The translations under genes and the position numbers were made by a program. A stretch of DNA of 64,000 nucleotides, taken from NCBI GenBank assembly GCA_026693085.1, contig JAPLNB010000361.1:1-64000 (forward strand), written 5' to 3'. Below are positions 41,701-48,571 of this stretch, one piece after another (the first letter of the stretch is position 1; the number at the start of each line of letters is the position of its first letter). Origin of the DNA: Planctomycetota bacterium. Its GTDB lineage: Bacteria > Planctomycetota > Phycisphaerae > Tepidisphaerales > Tepidisphaeraceae. The notes under the pieces were generated by a model. It saw only the letters and a list, made by a program, of their open reading frames with translations. It did not search any database and had not been told where the DNA came from.

Positions 41701-43041
41701 AGCGTCAATTGCCAGATCGCGTTCGCCGAGTATCGAATACGCTTCTCCGAGGTAGTAGCGGAGATACGGGTTGGTCTTCTGAACCTCCAACGCCGCGCGA
41801 ACCGCCTCGATGACCTGCAGGGGTTCGCCTCGTGCGATAACCGCCTGCTTGAGGATCACGCTCCAGGCGCGTGCAACGCGGTCATTGGGGACTGCCGCCA
41901 GTTGGTCGGCAATCGGCGTGGCTTCGGCTTTGCGTCCCATGCCGACGAGCGAGATCGCCTTCATCGCATGCATTTCAAGGTCGACGCCCGATGTCCTCAA
42001 GTGGACGTTGGCCAGCCGCTTCTCGACCTCAGCGTAACGGCCGATTTCAAAAAACCGGCGGACGAGCACTCGGCGCAAAGGCGGATCGTCCTCGCTTTGC
42101 AGCGCCCGATCCAGCGCCTCGGTCGCCTCGACGGGCAGCCGCAATCGATCAAGCTGGCCCACCAGTATCCGCGCGAAGTACAGTTCGGGAACCGGATGCA
42201 GCGCCGCTTGACGGATGAAGAACATGGCAACGGTTTGCGCAGTGACGGGCTGGTCCTTGCTCGCATCGGGATACTTGACCTTGTCCTGCGCGGTGGCCGG
42301 GTAGTGCTTGGCGACCAGTTGCGCGATCTTGGCCTGCTGTTCGGCCGTCAGTTCGCCGAGCGTCAGGCAGGCAATGCTCATGAGGAGTTCGGCCCTGGCG
42401 TCGCCCGGATGGGCTTCCAGAATAGCCTGCGCGTGGGGGAGGACCTCCGGCTTGCGGTCCAGATGGCCCAACAGTTCCAGGGTTATGGCCTGCGCTTCCA
42501 CTTCCATGGGCGAGAGCTCGATCGCCTTTTTGCTGTCCACCATCGCCGGCTTGTAGTCGCGTAACGCCGCCAGCGCTTTGGCCCTGGCCACCAGGATCGG
42601 GACATCGCTGGGATTCCGCTCGAGCAGCGGCTTGGCGAAATCGATCACTTCGTTGCTGAAACCCAGCTTGGAATACAGCAACACGAGATCGCGTCGAACG
42701 TCGTGGCGATCGGGCTTCAGTTCCAGAAATCGGCGGTACAACTGCGCGCAGACCAAGAGGTTTCTGCCGTCCGGGCTGTCGGATTGCTTCTGCGCATCGG
42801 CCAGCGTGTAGACGGCGTCGGCATCCTGGGCATAACGGCCGATGTAGATGGCCAGGCTGCTGATGGCGGTTGCGTAATCTTTGTTCTTGTATGCCGTCAT
42901 CCCCGTTTCCCGCTGGCCCATGAAATAGCGTGTCCGCCGCTGCTTGAGGAGCACGACGGCGGTGGCAAGAACGGTGGCGATGAGCACAGCGCCGACCACG
43001 AGAAACGTGAGCCGGCGTTTGGTCTTGGCTCGTACGATCAT
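38734..43041 (-). CDS. Giant TPR protein of the exosortase/exopolysaccharide operon
   Basis: A 1435-residue protein with a single N-terminal membrane anchor (RLTFLVVGAVLIATVLATAVVLL, about residues 9-32) and no lipobox. The rest is made of tetratricopeptide repeats. Early copies include YKNKDYATAISSLAIYIGRY and a late one is LEEAEKLYRRALEMKPDFAA. It ends PATTVPSP. Its place at the end of the operon and its size match the PEP-CTERM system TPR protein (PrsT type) of exosortase gene clusters, which is often a lipoprotein; this one is membrane-anchored instead. It probably scaffolds polysaccharide assembly or export in the periplasm. The start overlaps the stop of the sugar-transferase gene by 4 bases. 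Confidence 0.88.
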   Translation of the reverse strand: MIVRAKTKRRLTFLVVGAVLIATVLATAVVLLKQRRTRYFMGQRETGMTAYKNKDYATAISSLAIYIGRYAQDADAVYTLADAQKQSDSPDGRNLLVCAQLYRRFLELKPDRHDVRRDLVLLYSKLGFSNEVIDFAKPLLERNPSDVPILVARAKALAALRDYKPAMVDSKKAIELSPMEVEAQAITLELLGHLDRKPEVLPHAQAILEAHPGDARAELLMSIACLTLGELTAEQQAKIAQLVAKHYPATAQDKVKYPDASKDQPVTAQTVAMFFIRQAALHPVPELYFARILVGQLDRLRLPVEATEALDRALQSEDDPPLRRVLVRRFFEIGRYAEVEKRLANVHLRTSGVDLEMHAMKAISLVGMGRKAEATPIADQLAAVPNDRVARAWSVILKQAVIARGEPLQVIEAVRAALEVQKTNPYLRYYLGEAYSILGERDLAIDAWRQVNAYAPLWPLPLVYLSRLFLEDGQPQYAREAARAAAELTLNATTYANLAAVWAASVSKDEMIRDPDLQKLLAGVQQAMPGEERTLPVHIVVLAKSGKRAEAEKALRDALDAKIPPSESLLLKLASASREAELGQEAACYALAEKHYGLTPGLALTRAVALAADGKVAEGATLLDPEMQKKPTTQPAEKLAWRLNWAQYLDQYKDPRAAAAWKSLVEDANLKDNLQVQRAALAAPSVQSNREFMSRTIERLRAITGEQAAGWRLARTEMLVNGKDPTKAELEEAVKLLGQVVASAPNHSAESRQSLASIHARLGNSAAAIEQLLAALKLKPQSDVLMLDLARLYLAQSDAVHAREQMDRIRPQQLDPKQRQQLIRLLMQMGDNERAAKLLETQATPTTNPTDNLMLAELYRRRNQPEKAEPLYREMLKSPTPSAIVAAASFFASTGRKAEAERVLGGLPALTLDPGIKELAYADYYAMYGTKEQATEQYKAAVKAGPRNAMAWRAMLVNHVRNGRIDDALAGAAEASAAVPTDKVFEEFRANAKELKTVASDGSFVPLIIWVLQSRGDANAAIEAIRIGANAMLTNQPPSVLVGKLRPIADRSPGLVPLQTLLIVRCIAADRMDDAVAIAQRSIKAAPASADLAQLAAEVLFMSGDFAQAIAAARQWRELSLNQPMPADLFIAEMHLRQGNADRAAESIAPHLQAAIAKPDDFKDVLVMRANILLNRGQYDQVRELLWPSVSRSASWRKVWFELILSISGNSTVATSWLERVSTVIPESADDERILLAQIWQTMGQRSNDPQLIEKAKAILNQIAARPEKSPELLFSLAVVEESTGNLEEAEKLYRRALEMKPDFAAVQNNLAMVIANRNGNLPEAMTLAAKAVQAMPNAPAFCDTLGQVQAKSKDYKGAIASLTKAVQLEPRNPLWQINLASVYDQAGQKDKVEPLLRQIDSALKGKQIPPAYQAKLDKLRADLPKKPATTVPSP

Positions 43042-44471
43042 GATCGCAACACTCCCTTGATGACCATGGCGATGGTCTGCAAGATGATTTTCAGGTCAAG
43101 CCCCCAGCTTGCCTTTTCCACATACTCGATGTCGTATTTGATCCATTCCTGGAAATCCAGGCCGCGGCGGCGGGTGCGTCTCACCTGCCAGAGGCCGGTG
43201 ATCCCCGGCCGGACGCTCAGGCGTGCTTCGCGCCACGGCGGGCAATACTGGTTTTCCTCGAAGGGGCTGGGCCTCGGCCCCACGATCGACATGTCACCCT
43301 TCAGGACATTCCAGAACTGCGGCAGCTCATCGATCTCGACTTTCCGGATAAACCGGCCCACTCGCGTGAGGCGAGGATCGTTCTCAATGAAGAACTGCGG
43401 GCCATCGGCCTGGTTTTCACCGGCCAGCCTGGCCTTGATCTGGTCGGCGTCCTTGCGCATCGAGCGGAATTTGATGCAGCCAAACTCCCTGTCCCCGAGC
43501 GTTTCGCGCTGATGCGAGAAGAAGAACGGCCCACCGTCCTCCAGCCAGATCGCCAGCATCACCAGCGGGTACACGGGCAATGTCAGCAGGATCGCGCTGA
43601 TCGCAAACACGATGTCGAAAAGACGCTTGCTTGCACGGCTCAGGGACGTCCGGCGCACCGGCCGGACCGGCCGCGTAAAGCTGAACGTCGGTTCAATTTC
43701 GTGCCATTGGAGCGTGTCCACGGGCGGTTTGGCGATGGGATCGTCCCACAGAATGCGCGGGCCGATGATGCTCGTCTGCGCATCGATCCGACGACCGGCG
43801 CCGATCCACACGTGCCCAACGAGCTTGGTGGCGTCGCCCACCTGGGCCGTTTCATCGGACCATGCGGTCTCGCGAACCTTCTGGACGCGGTAGACGGTGG
43901 AGTCCGGGCGTTTCCACAGGCGGACGATTTCCCGCACGCACTGCATTACTTCGACGTCCGCGCGGCGATCGTAGACTCCTGCCTTGATTCGCAGGACGCT
44001 ACGGTGCTCCCGTGGGACTTCCTGCCGAAGCGTTTTCCAGCCTTCCCTGGCGCCGGGCGATTTTTGCCAGATGTGCGCCAGCCTGCGTTCGGACGTCAGC
44101 GCGACCCTGGCTTCGCGCGAATCGGACGCGTCATAGGTTCGCTCGAACCGCACGAACCGCCCGTCGGTATCGGTGATCACGCGTTCACGGTAACCCCGCT
44201 CACGGTCGTCGTGCAGCCTTGCGTAGAGCATGTCCGGCTTGATCCAGCTCAAGAACTCAACGAGGCGCGTCAGCTTGAAAACCGACAGGATCTGCGGCTC
44301 GGTGAGGAGAAACAGCTCCGCGCCGTCCACGATTTCCGAAGGCTCGCCCTGGCGCACGACCTGTACGCCGCGCGCGGCCCAGAAGCGGTCGTGCAACTGC
44401 GCCGGCGACAGTCCCCAGATCGTCGGGGTCGCCTCACACACCATCGATAACGGACCTGTTTGCGTGATCAT
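43038..44471 (-). CDS. Polyprenyl-phosphate sugar-1-phosphate transferase with N-terminal beta-helix-like domain
   Basis: A 477-residue initiating transferase of exopolysaccharide synthesis. The C-terminal half (about 275-477) is the bacterial sugar-transferase domain: membrane helix KRLFDIVFAISAILLTLPV, then GPFFFSHQRETLGDREF, IKFRSMRKDA, KVEIDELPQFWNVLKGDMSI, VGPRPSPFEE and RPGITGLWQV. The catalytic Asp-Glu pair is 381/382. Unusually, the first ~250 residues are not the usual four-helix/CoA-binding-like region. Instead they resemble part of a sugar nucleotidyltransferase with a left-handed beta-helix end (VGHVWIGAGRRIDAQTSIIG). The first gene of the operon has a similar tail, so the two may share a subunit design. 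Overlaps both neighbours by 4 bases. Confidence 0.88.
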   Translation of the reverse strand: MITQTGPLSMVCEATPTIWGLSPAQLHDRFWAARGVQVVRQGEPSEIVDGAELFLLTEPQILSVFKLTRLVEFLSWIKPDMLYARLHDDRERGYRERVITDTDGRFVRFERTYDASDSREARVALTSERRLAHIWQKSPGAREGWKTLRQEVPREHRSVLRIKAGVYDRRADVEVMQCVREIVRLWKRPDSTVYRVQKVRETAWSDETAQVGDATKLVGHVWIGAGRRIDAQTSIIGPRILWDDPIAKPPVDTLQWHEIEPTFSFTRPVRPVRRTSLSRASKRLFDIVFAISAILLTLPVYPLVMLAIWLEDGGPFFFSHQRETLGDREFGCIKFRSMRKDADQIKARLAGENQADGPQFFIENDPRLTRVGRFIRKVEIDELPQFWNVLKGDMSIVGPRPSPFEENQYCPPWREARLSVRPGITGLWQVRRTRRRGLDFQEWIKYDIEYVEKASWGLDLKIILQTIAMVIKGVLRS

Positions 44472-46885
44472 GGGTGAGGTCGGCTCCCGTTCTTGCCCGA
44501 GGGCGTGCGGCCGGTGACTGCAAACGCGATTGGCCCGAGCTTCTGAGGCTCGCCGCTCTGCACGACGTCCGCCACTCGCACCGATCCGCGCCCGACGCCG
44601 CGGTCAAAGGAGCTGAGGCGGTTGGTGGTCGTCGTCAGCTCCATGTCTCGGCTTTCCGCGCGGTTAAACACCATACCCGCCACAACCGCGCCAATGTCAT
44701 GCAAGTGCTGGAGAGACCGCTCTGCCGGGGGGCGATGTTCGCCGCGCGACACGACGAGCACGACGCCGTCTGCCGCGGCCGCCACGACCGACGCTTCGAG
44801 GCTGCCCGGGATGGGACCGGTGTCGACGAGGACGGTATCGTAGCGTTTGCGGGCCTCGTCGATCAGCTTGCGGACCGCATTGGGGGACAATCGCCCTGCG
44901 TCGGCGGGCATGGCCGCGCCGAGGGGGAGGATGGAAAGCCCGCGTATTCCGGTATCGGCAACACAGTCGTCGATGTTCTCGCCGTTCATCGCATCGAGCA
45001 TCCCGATGGGCGCTTCTTCCTGGAGCGTCAGTCCTCGCGCGACGTCCGCTTCGGTGAGGAAGCCGAGGTCGACCAGGATTTCTCCGAGCCGTCGGTGCGA
45101 CGTTGCCGCGACCTTCATAGCCATATCCAACTGCTGCTGGGTGATCAAGCCTTCCCGCTTGAGGATCTGTCCGATTTTCCGGCGGATGATCGTGTCCACC
45201 CTTGCGGTCAGACCGCCGCCGACGATATCGCAGTCAATGAGCAGCGTTCGCGAGTTGGTCGCGGCAAACGAGACTCCCAGCGCCAGCGCCAAGCTGGTCT
45301 TGCCGGTTCCGGCAGCTGGGCTGGTGATCACAAATACCCGCGATCCGGGCACGGGCGCGCTGATTTGAAGCAAGGTTCGGATCTGGTGTACGCAGTGCGC
45401 GGCAATCGCCGCCTGCTCGGGATCGGCCAAGTCATCCGGCAGGCTCGGGAGGACGCCCAGCAGGGCAAGCTTTCCGACGCTTGAGCGGGCATCGTCGGCG
45501 CTGCGTAAACGCCGGTCGAGGAGCGCGATCAGGAGGATGATTCCAAACCCAAACCCCCCGCCGGCTATTCCACCGGCGGCAGCGCGGATGATGCGGTTGT
45601 CTTTGGCGGGCATCGGCCGATCGCCATCGCTGATGATGCGAATACGTCCCTGTGTCGCCTCGATGCTCAACTCGGCAAGCCGCTTCCTGACGCGTTCAAG
45701 CTCCGGGATGATCTGCTCTTCCTCATTGCGAAACCTATCGATATCGAGCATATCGCGGCCTACCGCCTTGGCCTGACCATCCGCTTTTTCCGCGCTCGTG
45801 GTATACGCTTCTTTTCGCCGTTTAAGCTCATCCACGGACACGCCCGCCATCTGCGAACCGCCAATCCCCACCGAGTTCTTCATGGCATCGCGGAAGTCTT
45901 CGGCGTACCGGCGGATGGCCTCTTTCTTGGCGGTCAGCAGCGTGCTTAGTTCAATCACCTTCGGATGCTTCTCACCCAGGTTCTTCGTCTTCACCGCCTC
46001 GGCCTCAATGATCTCCTTCTCATGCAGCAGTTGCCTCATCCCCGCGTCGCGCAACCCGATCTCCGCAACCGTCAGCCCCTGCTCGTCCTTGTTCTCTTTC
46101 CCATCCGCGCCTCTGGCTTTGAGTGCATCCAACTGGAAATCAATCTCGGCCAGGGCAGATTCCAGGCGATTGACGTTCTGCAGCTTTGCCTCGTGGATGC
46201 TCCGGAGTTCTTTGGTGCCGTACTTGTCGGCGATCAACTTGATCTGCTCACGCTTGTCCTTCAGTTGAGCGCTCAGGTCCCTGCGCAGGTTTTCGACCGT
46301 GTTCTGCTTGTTGGCCTCTTCGGCGGCATCCTTTTCCACGTACTGCCGCCTGTAGGCCTCCAACACCGACTTGACAGCCGCCGTGGTAGCCCGCGGGTCC
46401 GGATCGGTGAACGTGACGTAGATCATCTCTCCTTTGGGAGCCAGAACCTCCAGGTTTTTTTGGAAGTCGTCGATCCCGTCTTCGTCTATGGGCCGGCCCA
46501 GCACCCTCCAGGAATCGCTGTTCATGGCCATGTTGATGACCCGCTGGCTGCGGAGGAACGACGCCTGCCCCTGTACGAACGACTCGAACAACGGCATCAA
46601 TTGGATCTCCGGCGCATTGGGGGAAATCACCGGGGACAGCGCCGGCTTGATCTGGATCATGCCGCTGCTGATGTACGTTCGCTTGGCCAGCTTGAACCCG
46701 CCAAAGCCGCCCAGCGCCAGTCCCAGCAGGCTCAGCGCAATCGCCCACTTGTAGCGGTTGCGCAACAGGCGGTGCAGTTTGCGGAAGACTTGCGACGGCT
46801 GCTCTCCGTGCCGGTCATAGACCGACAACGGGTCGGCTATATCGGGCAGATTCTCTGAGGTTCGTAACTGTATCTCTTGGCTCAT
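44468..46885 (-). CDS. Wzz/BY-kinase with an MshEN-like segment inside the ATPase domain
   Basis: An 805-residue polysaccharide co-polymerase/autokinase. Transmembrane helices lie at about 47-64 and 433-456, flanking a periplasmic coiled-coil region, as in Wzz. The cytoplasmic ATPase has Walker A SPAAGTGKTS (522-531), Walker A' TLLIDCDIVGGG (547-558) and Walker B DTVLVDTGP (683-691). Between A' and B, residues 569-622 hold KIGQILKREGLITQQQLD and RRLGEILVDLGFLTEADVAR followed by GLTLQ, a good match to the MshEN/GspE N-terminal fold that binds c-di-GMP. The usual C-terminal Tyr cluster is absent. Starts overlap the stop of epsI by 4 bases; likely controls chain length and export. Confidence 0.88.
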   Translation of the reverse strand: MSQEIQLRTSENLPDIADPLSVYDRHGEQPSQVFRKLHRLLRNRYKWAIALSLLGLALGGFGGFKLAKRTYISSGMIQIKPALSPVISPNAPEIQLMPLFESFVQGQASFLRSQRVINMAMNSDSWRVLGRPIDEDGIDDFQKNLEVLAPKGEMIYVTFTDPDPRATTAAVKSVLEAYRRQYVEKDAAEEANKQNTVENLRRDLSAQLKDKREQIKLIADKYGTKELRSIHEAKLQNVNRLESALAEIDFQLDALKARGADGKENKDEQGLTVAEIGLRDAGMRQLLHEKEIIEAEAVKTKNLGEKHPKVIELSTLLTAKKEAIRRYAEDFRDAMKNSVGIGGSQMAGVSVDELKRRKEAYTTSAEKADGQAKAVGRDMLDIDRFRNEEEQIIPELERVRKRLAELSIEATQGRIRIISDGDRPMPAKDNRIIRAAAGGIAGGGFGFGIILLIALLDRRLRSADDARSSVGKLALLGVLPSLPDDLADPEQAAIAAHCVHQIRTLLQISAPVPGSRVFVITSPAAGTGKTSLALALGVSFAATNSRTLLIDCDIVGGGLTARVDTIIRRKIGQILKREGLITQQQLDMAMKVAATSHRRLGEILVDLGFLTEADVARGLTLQEEAPIGMLDAMNGENIDDCVADTGIRGLSILPLGAAMPADAGRLSPNAVRKLIDEARKRYDTVLVDTGPIPGSLEASVVAAAADGVVLVVSRGEHRPPAERSLQHLHDIGAVVAGMVFNRAESRDMELTTTTNRLSSFDRGVGRGSVRVADVVQSGEPQKLGPIAFAVTGRTPSGKNGSRPHP

Positions 46886-47550
46886 CGTGTCCCTCCGGAG
46901 CTCAATGTCTCCAGCAACTGCACGTGTGCCCCCAGCACCATGCTGACAATCTCGCGGCGAGCTTCCGGGCGTATGCCGGCATCGACAACAACCTGGATCT
47001 GCGCAGCCCCATAGAACTGTCGCAGGTAATCGGCCGCCACCTTGCTGATGTCATCCATTCCGAGGGCAACCCGCCCATCCGGAAGGATGATCAGGTTGCT
47101 GACGACACACGTTATGGTCTGTCCCTCTTCAACTCTCGTATACCCGTACTCCATGCCCGGGAACATTTTGGATCCCACCTGCCATTCGACGGGCGTTGCC
47201 GAACGCTGGGTCCATCCATGGGCGGGATAACAGACCGGCGGGTAATGCCCGAGCATGTCGCGGGCATCGCGGCAGTGCACCAGCAAGAAATCGGCTCGCC
47301 GACCGGTGCTCTGCTGGACAAACCGCCGATGCACGATCGCGTTCGGGCGAAGCAGCGCCACTGCCGCGGGGGGTACGGCGATGTCGGTCCCGACCCACTC
47401 GTCGATGGTCTTGGGCATTTCCTCGCACACCTGCCGCACTCGCTGATGGAACGGCTCGGCATCTTTGGGTTTCGGGCGTGACATGCTCTCGGCAGTCAGC
47501 CCGCCGAGCAGCAGCAGCGTCACAAACAGGGGTATATTTCTCCGTCGCAT
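46882..47550 (-). CDS. epsI: Exosortase-associated EpsI-family protein
   Basis: A 222-residue protein with an N-terminal hydrophobic anchor (IPLFVTLLLLGGLTAESM). Its core carries the EpsI signature GHYPPVCYPAHGW, with a conserved Cys, preceded by a typical RADFLLVHCRDARD. EpsI proteins accompany exosortases and are often fused to them; they are believed to act in exopolysaccharide assembly. The ATG at 47550 has GGAG eight bases upstream and is preferred to the ATG two codons earlier. Sits between the exosortase gene (43 bases) and the kinase gene (4-base overlap). Confidence 0.88.
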   Translation of the reverse strand: MRRRNIPLFVTLLLLGGLTAESMSRPKPKDAEPFHQRVRQVCEEMPKTIDEWVGTDIAVPPAAVALLRPNAIVHRRFVQQSTGRRADFLLVHCRDARDMLGHYPPVCYPAHGWTQRSATPVEWQVGSKMFPGMEYGYTRVEEGQTITCVVSNLIILPDGRVALGMDDISKVAADYLRQFYGAAQIQVVVDAGIRPEARREIVSMVLGAHVQLLETLSSGGTR

Positions 47551-47593
47551 CACCATCGCTCCGTCTTCTCAGATCCGAACGGCGTTTCCAGCT

Positions 47594-48571
47594 TCAATCG
47601 GCCGCCAGCGTATAGGTCGCCACCGGTATCAATGCCCACTTGAGCAAGCGGACAATTCCCATCAACAGCAGAAACGCAATCGCCAGCATTACCCAGCCGG
47701 ATATGGCGTGGAACGCGTCCGCCACCTGTTTCGATTGATAACCGTACAAGTAGAGGGTCGGCAGCATCCGGATGACATTGCAGAAAATCGCCGACAGCGG
47801 ACACGCCGCCAGGATCAATAGCCTCACGTAGTTCCGCAGCGGCTCGCCATACGCAAACGCATACGAGACCAGAACCAGGGCAAACACCATGCGCATTCCG
47901 TTGCATGCCTCGGCGATGAAAACGTCCTGGCCATTGATGTTCAGCAGGTTGCCCGAACGTTCAACGGGAGCCCCCACCAGGTCAAACAGGGACTGGGTCA
48001 CGGCTGCCGTGGCCGTCTGCATCGGGATCGCAACCGCCTGCCGGATACGGCCGGGAACCGGCACGAGGAACACCAGGACGAGAAACGCGGGCAAGAACCG
48101 GGTCAATACGTCGCGCCCGACCACCGACAACAAACACCCCACAGCCACCAGGACGGCGCCCCCATGCCACAGCGACTGAGTCGCATGATGAAAACCAAAA
48201 GTCGAGATCGCCCAGCCCACCAGGACCAACGGGGGCCCGATCCAGGTCCTCCGCGGCTGGCACAGCCTGAAACGTCCACGCCGCACCCACACCAGCCACG
48301 CCACCACCAGCGGCACCAGGAATATGTGGCTTGCCTCCTCGTCTATCCGCGCGATATGCAGAATGTCGGACCAAGGCGCCAGCGTCGCCAGGACCCCCAG
48401 AACAACCAGCACGACCGCCAAAACGGCATGCGCAAGCGTCCAACCATGTCTTGCGACCAGGCGGGTCCGGGGAATTTCTGACGCTACGGCATTCAAGGCA
48501 GGGCGGTCTCCAGGCCCTGGCGGCGTACGGCCGAGTGACGTTATTTTTGCAGAGTCGCTTAGCTTTGCCAT
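47594..48571 (-). CDS. Exosortase
   Basis: A 325-residue integral membrane transpeptidase-like enzyme of the exosortase family, which cleaves PEP-CTERM signals and probably attaches proteins to exopolysaccharide. The Cys-Arg-His triad is visible in order: Cys223 in FIAEACNGMRMV, Arg268 in FCNVIRMLPTLYLYGY and His288 in ADAFHAISGWVML. About eight helices surround these. The N-terminal ~40 residues are polar. The PEP-CTERM protein at 28612-31545 is the only evident substrate in the window. Separated by 4 bases from the gene before it, so co-transcription is nearly certain. Confidence 0.93.
   Translation of the reverse strand: MAKLSDSAKITSLGRTPPGPGDRPALNAVASEIPRTRLVARHGWTLAHAVLAVVLVVLGVLATLAPWSDILHIARIDEEASHIFLVPLVVAWLVWVRRGRFRLCQPRRTWIGPPLVLVGWAISTFGFHHATQSLWHGGAVLVAVGCLLSVVGRDVLTRFLPAFLVLVFLVPVPGRIRQAVAIPMQTATAAVTQSLFDLVGAPVERSGNLLNINGQDVFIAEACNGMRMVFALVLVSYAFAYGEPLRNYVRLLILAACPLSAIFCNVIRMLPTLYLYGYQSKQVADAFHAISGWVMLAIAFLLLMGIVRLLKWALIPVATYTLAAD

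Follow-up and report, generated by a model that had tools for sequence, protein, structure and literature searches.

c-di-GMP controls exopolysaccharide in many bacteria. Its direct protein targets known to us in this process are all synthases or accessory proteins (BcsA, Alg44, PelD, NfrB), and to our knowledge the c-di-GMP links of Wzx/Wzy-type systems are mainly transcriptional.

The closest described domain is that of MshE, in which the ligand (PMC5013675) is contacted in each motif by R-L-G, a Leu pair and a Gln, and changes at the contact Gly residues abolish binding. The text of the same study gives REC, HD-GYP, CheA, CheX, cyclase and Ser/Thr kinase as fusion partners of MshEN. NfrB sets a precedent for turning on exopolysaccharide synthesis through an MshEN domain (PMC8669469). 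In Wzc, phosphorylation of the Tyr tail dissolves the octamer and is proposed thereby to stop polymerisation (PMC8285477). A sequence-only reading of the DNA analyzed here (64,000 nucleotides, hereafter the window) had proposed an MshEN-like segment within a Wzz/BY-kinase and knew of no described BY-kinase with such an insertion; the literature searched, leaving aside the fusion table of PMC5013675, likewise contained no BY-kinase or co-polymerase with an MshEN domain.

A co-polymerase gene in an exosortase locus

The gene, which like all features given below with window coordinates lies on the reverse strand (-), spans 44468..46885 and encodes a probable Wzz/Wzc-type polysaccharide co-polymerase of 805 aa with a cytoplasmic P-loop ATPase domain carrying the insert, as assigned from the open reading frame, profiles, PDB comparison and fold. 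In profile searches the protein scored over the cut-off with the CbiA and AAA_31 models and below it with Wzz (Pfam score 15.7 bits, cut-off 25.5), TIGR01007 and TIGR03018. BceF, VpsO and Wzc were the closest solved structures in a PDB sequence search, and comparison of the AlphaFold model with the PDB showed the Wzc kinase-domain fold (3la6) in the cytoplasmic part.

Overlaps of 4 bases connect the gene to the neighbours on either side, an arrangement like that of a tight operon: its end overlaps the start of the gene for an initiating phosphoglycosyltransferase (Bac_transf, 43038..44471) and its start the end of that for an EpsI-like DUF3485 protein (46882..47556). Both neighbours are syntenic in relatives, as is an exosortase (47594..48571) that is nearest to exosortase A but below that model's cut-off. 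The locus further includes a TPR protein of 1435 residues and, at a greater distance, a polysaccharide deacetylase of the exosortase system, and the order exosortase-EpsI-copolymerase-sugar transferase-TPR is conserved in relatives. None of the scanned proteins of the 64-kb window could be identified as a diguanylate cyclase, plasmid records gave no match, and PADLOC found nothing. The protein, with a periplasmic part like that of Wzz and a P-loop domain like that of Wzc, is probably the inner-membrane co-polymerase/export ATPase of an exosortase-linked exopolysaccharide locus, controlling polysaccharide export. The same genome holds a second co-polymerase copy in another exosortase/EpsI locus (contig C365:15701-18022, L047), with a degenerate insert in which both motif glycines are lost and which scores 33.8 bits with NF053729, under the cut-off.

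The nucleotide-binding motifs comprise Walker A SPAAGTGKTS (residues 522-531, 45293..45322), Walker A' LLIDCDIVGGGL (residues 548-559, 45209..45244), in which DxD is kept and the Arg of DxDxR is absent, and Walker B TVLVDTGPI (residues 684-692, 44810..44836). K529, the Walker A Lys, together with D551, D553 and D688, is invariant in 48 sequences, of which 29 are inserted and 19 insert-free. At residues 497-503 (45377..45397) the alignment places HX2HX2R where BY-kinases have EX2RX2R, a replacement found in most members, inserted and insert-free alike; the Walker A' Arg is absent from nearly all members, and the match to the tyrosine autokinase model TIGR01007, which is interrupted by the insert, reaches 79 bits (cut-off 108). 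Because of these three features we consider the label 'BY-kinase', judged on sequence, too strong; Walker A, DxD, Walker B and the predicted Wzc fold are present.

The C-terminal tail (residues 746-805, 44471..44650) contains no Tyr, in agreement with the Tyr cluster having been noted as missing, and carries a GP-(I/V)-A motif common to insert-free relatives; most of the subfamily, with or without the insert, has GP-(I/V)-A-x-A-V near the C-terminus, where Wzc has its Tyr tail. The suggestion that the absence of this cluster points to a changed mode of control could not be upheld, and a link between Tyr loss and the insertion was rejected, since the 19 insert-free relatives also have only 0-1 tail Tyr (0-5 in inserted ones). 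We infer that the family must use a control other than the Wzc Tyr tail and that in the inserted branch c-di-GMP would come on top of it.

An MshEN_N domain inserted into the P-loop domain

The segment at 45020-45181 corresponds to residues 569-622 and so follows Walker A' and precedes Walker B. Read against insert-free relatives, the limits of the insert lie at residues ~566-623 (~45017-45190), giving a length of ~58 residues. Residues 570-620 score 55.4 bits (E 3.9e-15, cut-off 38) against the NCBIfam model for a 'cyclic di-GMP-binding domain, MshE-related' (NF053729), which ranks second among 8 matches genome-wide. With the segment alone, phmmer found V. cholerae MshE (5htl) at 2.3e-8, and a profile built from orthologous inserts found the same structure at 2e-16.

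Profile and alignments resolve two motifs spaced as 24+5+24 (53 residues). Motif I, KIGQILKREGLITQQQLDMAMKVA (residues 570-593, 45107..45178), in which Gln-24 is replaced by Ala, reads KIG...A against the consensus RLG...Q; it is followed by the five-residue linker ATSHR (residues 594-598, 45092..45106), of the same length as in MshE (PMC5013675), and by the near-perfect motif II, RLGEILVDLGFLTEADVARGLTLQ (residues 599-622, 45020..45091). The first motif had indeed been described as the weaker copy. The expected profile match was borne out by NF053729 but not by Pfam MshEN (PF05157, 90 positions), which gave no match to the co-polymerase. In the genome's other hits PF05157 aligns immediately beyond the C-terminal end of the 53-residue stretch, to a part absent from the insert. 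As PF05157 does not reach the protein, the best model is that of the 53-residue N-subdomain; the MshEN_C subdomain is absent from the insert.

The AlphaFold model of the cytoplasmic part has a mean pLDDT of 85, rising to ~95-98 in the insert, which forms a self-contained bundle of four helices connected through a short neck. When the insert was modelled alone, its 17 best PDB matches in Foldseek were MshE and PilF/PilB GSPII structures, mostly c-di-GMP complexes (TMq 0.78 to 5htl_B; rmsd 0.9 Å to PilF GSPII-B), in line with the predicted likeness to MshE. The Foldseek E-values are weak (0.014) because the insert is short. Xanthomonas PilB-N with PilZ (7lkm) is also among the fold matches. Residues ~566-623 are a complete MshEN_N domain, with a resemblance far beyond chance.

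Nineteen close relatives align straight across the site (...GLTARLDM-AGPDG...), and the ~58 extra residues are present in 29 proteins, this one included. In a genome search, some relatives aligned unbroken, whereas in others the match halted near 564 and restarted near 624. The MshEN_N segment is therefore a true insertion into the P-loop domain, as the sequence-only reading had placed it, and it recurs, as sought there, in other planctomycetes: the 28 other proteins come mostly from the same syntenic exosortase/exopolysaccharide locus, and a sample of 397 genomes of the class contained 35, from four families, with matches spanning both flanks. In a phylum-wide sample of 392 genomes, matches with E up to 1e-15, counted as strong, were confined to this one class, the lack of matches outside it being based on one phylum sample and one contig scan; the named matching records are Phycisphaerae-type planctomycetes and planctomycete MAGs. 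Neighbour order is mostly identical for inserted and insert-free genes, so the insertion brought no change of locus.

In an unrooted tree of the ATPase domain with the insert removed, a single branch (77/93) separates inserted from insert-free sequences. An outgroup-rooted tree is compatible both with early gain and later loss and with separate gains, and its root is uninformative on this point because the branches are long; as it used only 420 C-terminal residues, the insert-bearing L085 was scored as insert-free in it. That homologue (L085:6399-9692) has an exceptionally long C-terminal tail (~336 residues past the ATPase domain) without a Pfam match. A very divergent relative (L054/L030, G016:C16:10347-12512) has an insert at the same site and represents either an early branch or an independent insertion. 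The long frames in L077, L078 and L093 resembled exosortase/EpsI fusions, a reading that was rejected; Pfam gave only the ATPase and a weak Wzz match, indicating read-through of upstream sequence.

When the insert was compared with 38 MshEN sequences (MshE and 37 others, all from genomes of the class), its best matches over 55 residues were the GspE-type ATPases L068 (47%) and L055 (51%), which likewise have Ala as residue 24 of motif I and an SHRR-like linker; the Ala therefore probably predates the insertion. On these identity ranks and the shared Ala, the donor was likely a GspE-type (Ala type) secretion ATPase of the same class; a domain tree of 57 columns did not resolve it. Adjacent GspE/PilB-type ATPases, one with motif I ending in Ala and the other in Gln, are encoded in the same genome as the co-polymerase (G000 contig C264:11309 and 14738), and similar Ala/Gln-type pairs occur in other genomes of the class.

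Ligand contacts and predicted c-di-GMP binding

In the present insert, the motif contacts are kept or conservatively changed except for the motif I Gln. Among the 29 inserts, counted after removal of one duplicate alignment row, Gly-572 is kept in 21, Gly-601 in 22 and Gln-622 in 24, and position 570 is mostly Lys or Arg; at the motif I Gln-24 position, 16 have Ala, 9 Ser and 1 Gln. The expectation that the R/G/L/Q positions would be kept across orthologues thus holds in most inserts for both glycines and the motif II Gln, but not for the motif I Gln. Invariance in the 21-row alignment A4 is not independent evidence, since its rows were chosen for kept motifs. One or both motif glycines are lost in eight inserts, one of which is that of the C365 paralogue; these eight would probably not bind c-di-GMP, which indicates that the domain can persist without a binding site.

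Thermus PilF offers a measure of such changes. Lys at motif I position 1 is found in very-high-affinity proteins (KD 6-53 nM), among them PilF GSPII-B, and in PilF it confers a higher affinity than Arg does (PMC11731258). In GSPII-B, replacing the equivalent of the motif I Gln by Glu lowers affinity 158-fold (from 6 to 950 nM) with binding retained, and only a double Gln change abolished binding (PMC11731258); for GSPII-A, the set of changes required for regaining binding included the Gln (PMC12002112). The genome of the insert protein encodes 5 GGDEF and 5 PilZ proteins, and GGDEF proteins were present in all 15 insert-bearing genomes checked. With most contacts kept and one lost, c-di-GMP binding by the predicted domain is likely, and we hold this with some confidence, although the affinity may be weakened.

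Proposed gating of the ATPase and comparison with known systems

We propose that an MshEN_N domain was copied from a GspE-type ATPase of the class into the loop after Walker A', and that its four-helix bundle would take up c-di-GMP between the two motifs. The ends of this bundle would be anchored a few residues past the Walker A' aspartates, so that binding might alter nucleotide handling or ring assembly and thereby switch polysaccharide polymerisation and export; by analogy with MshE and NfrB, the direction would be activation. This explanation as a whole, a co-polymerase/export ATPase switched by c-di-GMP through a captured MshEN_N domain, in which we infer binding, direction and coupling, appears probable on balance. 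Gating of the ATPase by c-di-GMP through the insert is itself somewhat likely, whereas for the broader proposition that class-restricted Wzc-like export ATPases, lacking Tyr control of the Wzc kind, are gated allosterically by c-di-GMP via a GspE-derived MshEN domain, we would give even chances.

The degenerate inserts are relevant to a different account, in which the domain is an MshEN-derived docking module that does not bind the ligand and recruits a PilZ protein or a polymerase, like the non-binding N-domains of GspE/PilB. Such a role would agree with the systematic loss of the motif I Gln, the retention in place of eight degenerate inserts, the PilB-N/PilZ complex (7lkm) among the fold matches and the example of XpsE, which does not bind the ligand (PMC5013675). 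However, most inserts retain the glycines and the motif II Gln that contact the ligand, which were lost in XpsE, and Lys-570 is a high-affinity feature (PMC11731258); we regard docking without binding as unlikely, if credible. The domain could also bind c-di-GMP and merely tether ligand or protein, for instance near a diguanylate cyclase, with no gating of the ATPase. Its modelled form, self-contained and set on a short neck, would suit this, but it occupies not a free terminus but the P-loop domain directly behind Walker A', which seems the least suitable site for a tether and makes this account improbable. An internal ATPase elaboration or chance resemblance is refuted by the NF053729 match, the MshE sequence match, the fold and the absence of the segment from 19 close relatives, with nothing in its favour.

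Taken together, a known kind of domain, and not a new one, is found in a new setting, inside a Wzc-type P-loop domain: a sensor domain moved into the middle of a P-loop enzyme. If c-di-GMP does gate the ATPase, a second messenger would control a polysaccharide machine of the Wzz/Wzc type directly, through its ATPase, with the built-in domain letting the "stick to surfaces" signal act on export. Inserted, degenerate and insert-free relatives form a natural set that makes such a switch testable.

The insert resembles the MshE MshEN_N domain (5htl) and Thermus PilF GSPII-B (8pdk) in its two 24-residue motifs, 5-residue linker and four-helix bundle, in the contact Gly of both motifs and the Gln of motif II, and PilF also in the Lys at motif I position 1. 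Unlike these N-terminal domains of GspE/PilB ATPases, it is internal to a Wzc-type P-loop domain, lacks an MshEN_C subdomain and has Ala for the motif I Gln. The planctomycete GspE-type L055 and L068, at 47-51% identity, share this Ala and the SHRR-like linker, although their MshEN domain is again the N-terminal domain of a secretion/pilus ATPase. With Wzc and the BY-kinases (3la6; BceF, 6z0p; VpsO, 6u1q) the co-polymerase shares a Wzz-like N-part, Walker A, DxD, Walker B and the fold, and it differs in having no Tyr cluster, no EX2RX2R, no Walker A' Arg and a 58-residue insert. E. coli NfrB likewise has MshEN on an exopolysaccharide-making membrane protein and is c-di-GMP-activated, but is a glycosyltransferase with a C-terminal MshEN domain, not a co-polymerase ATPase.
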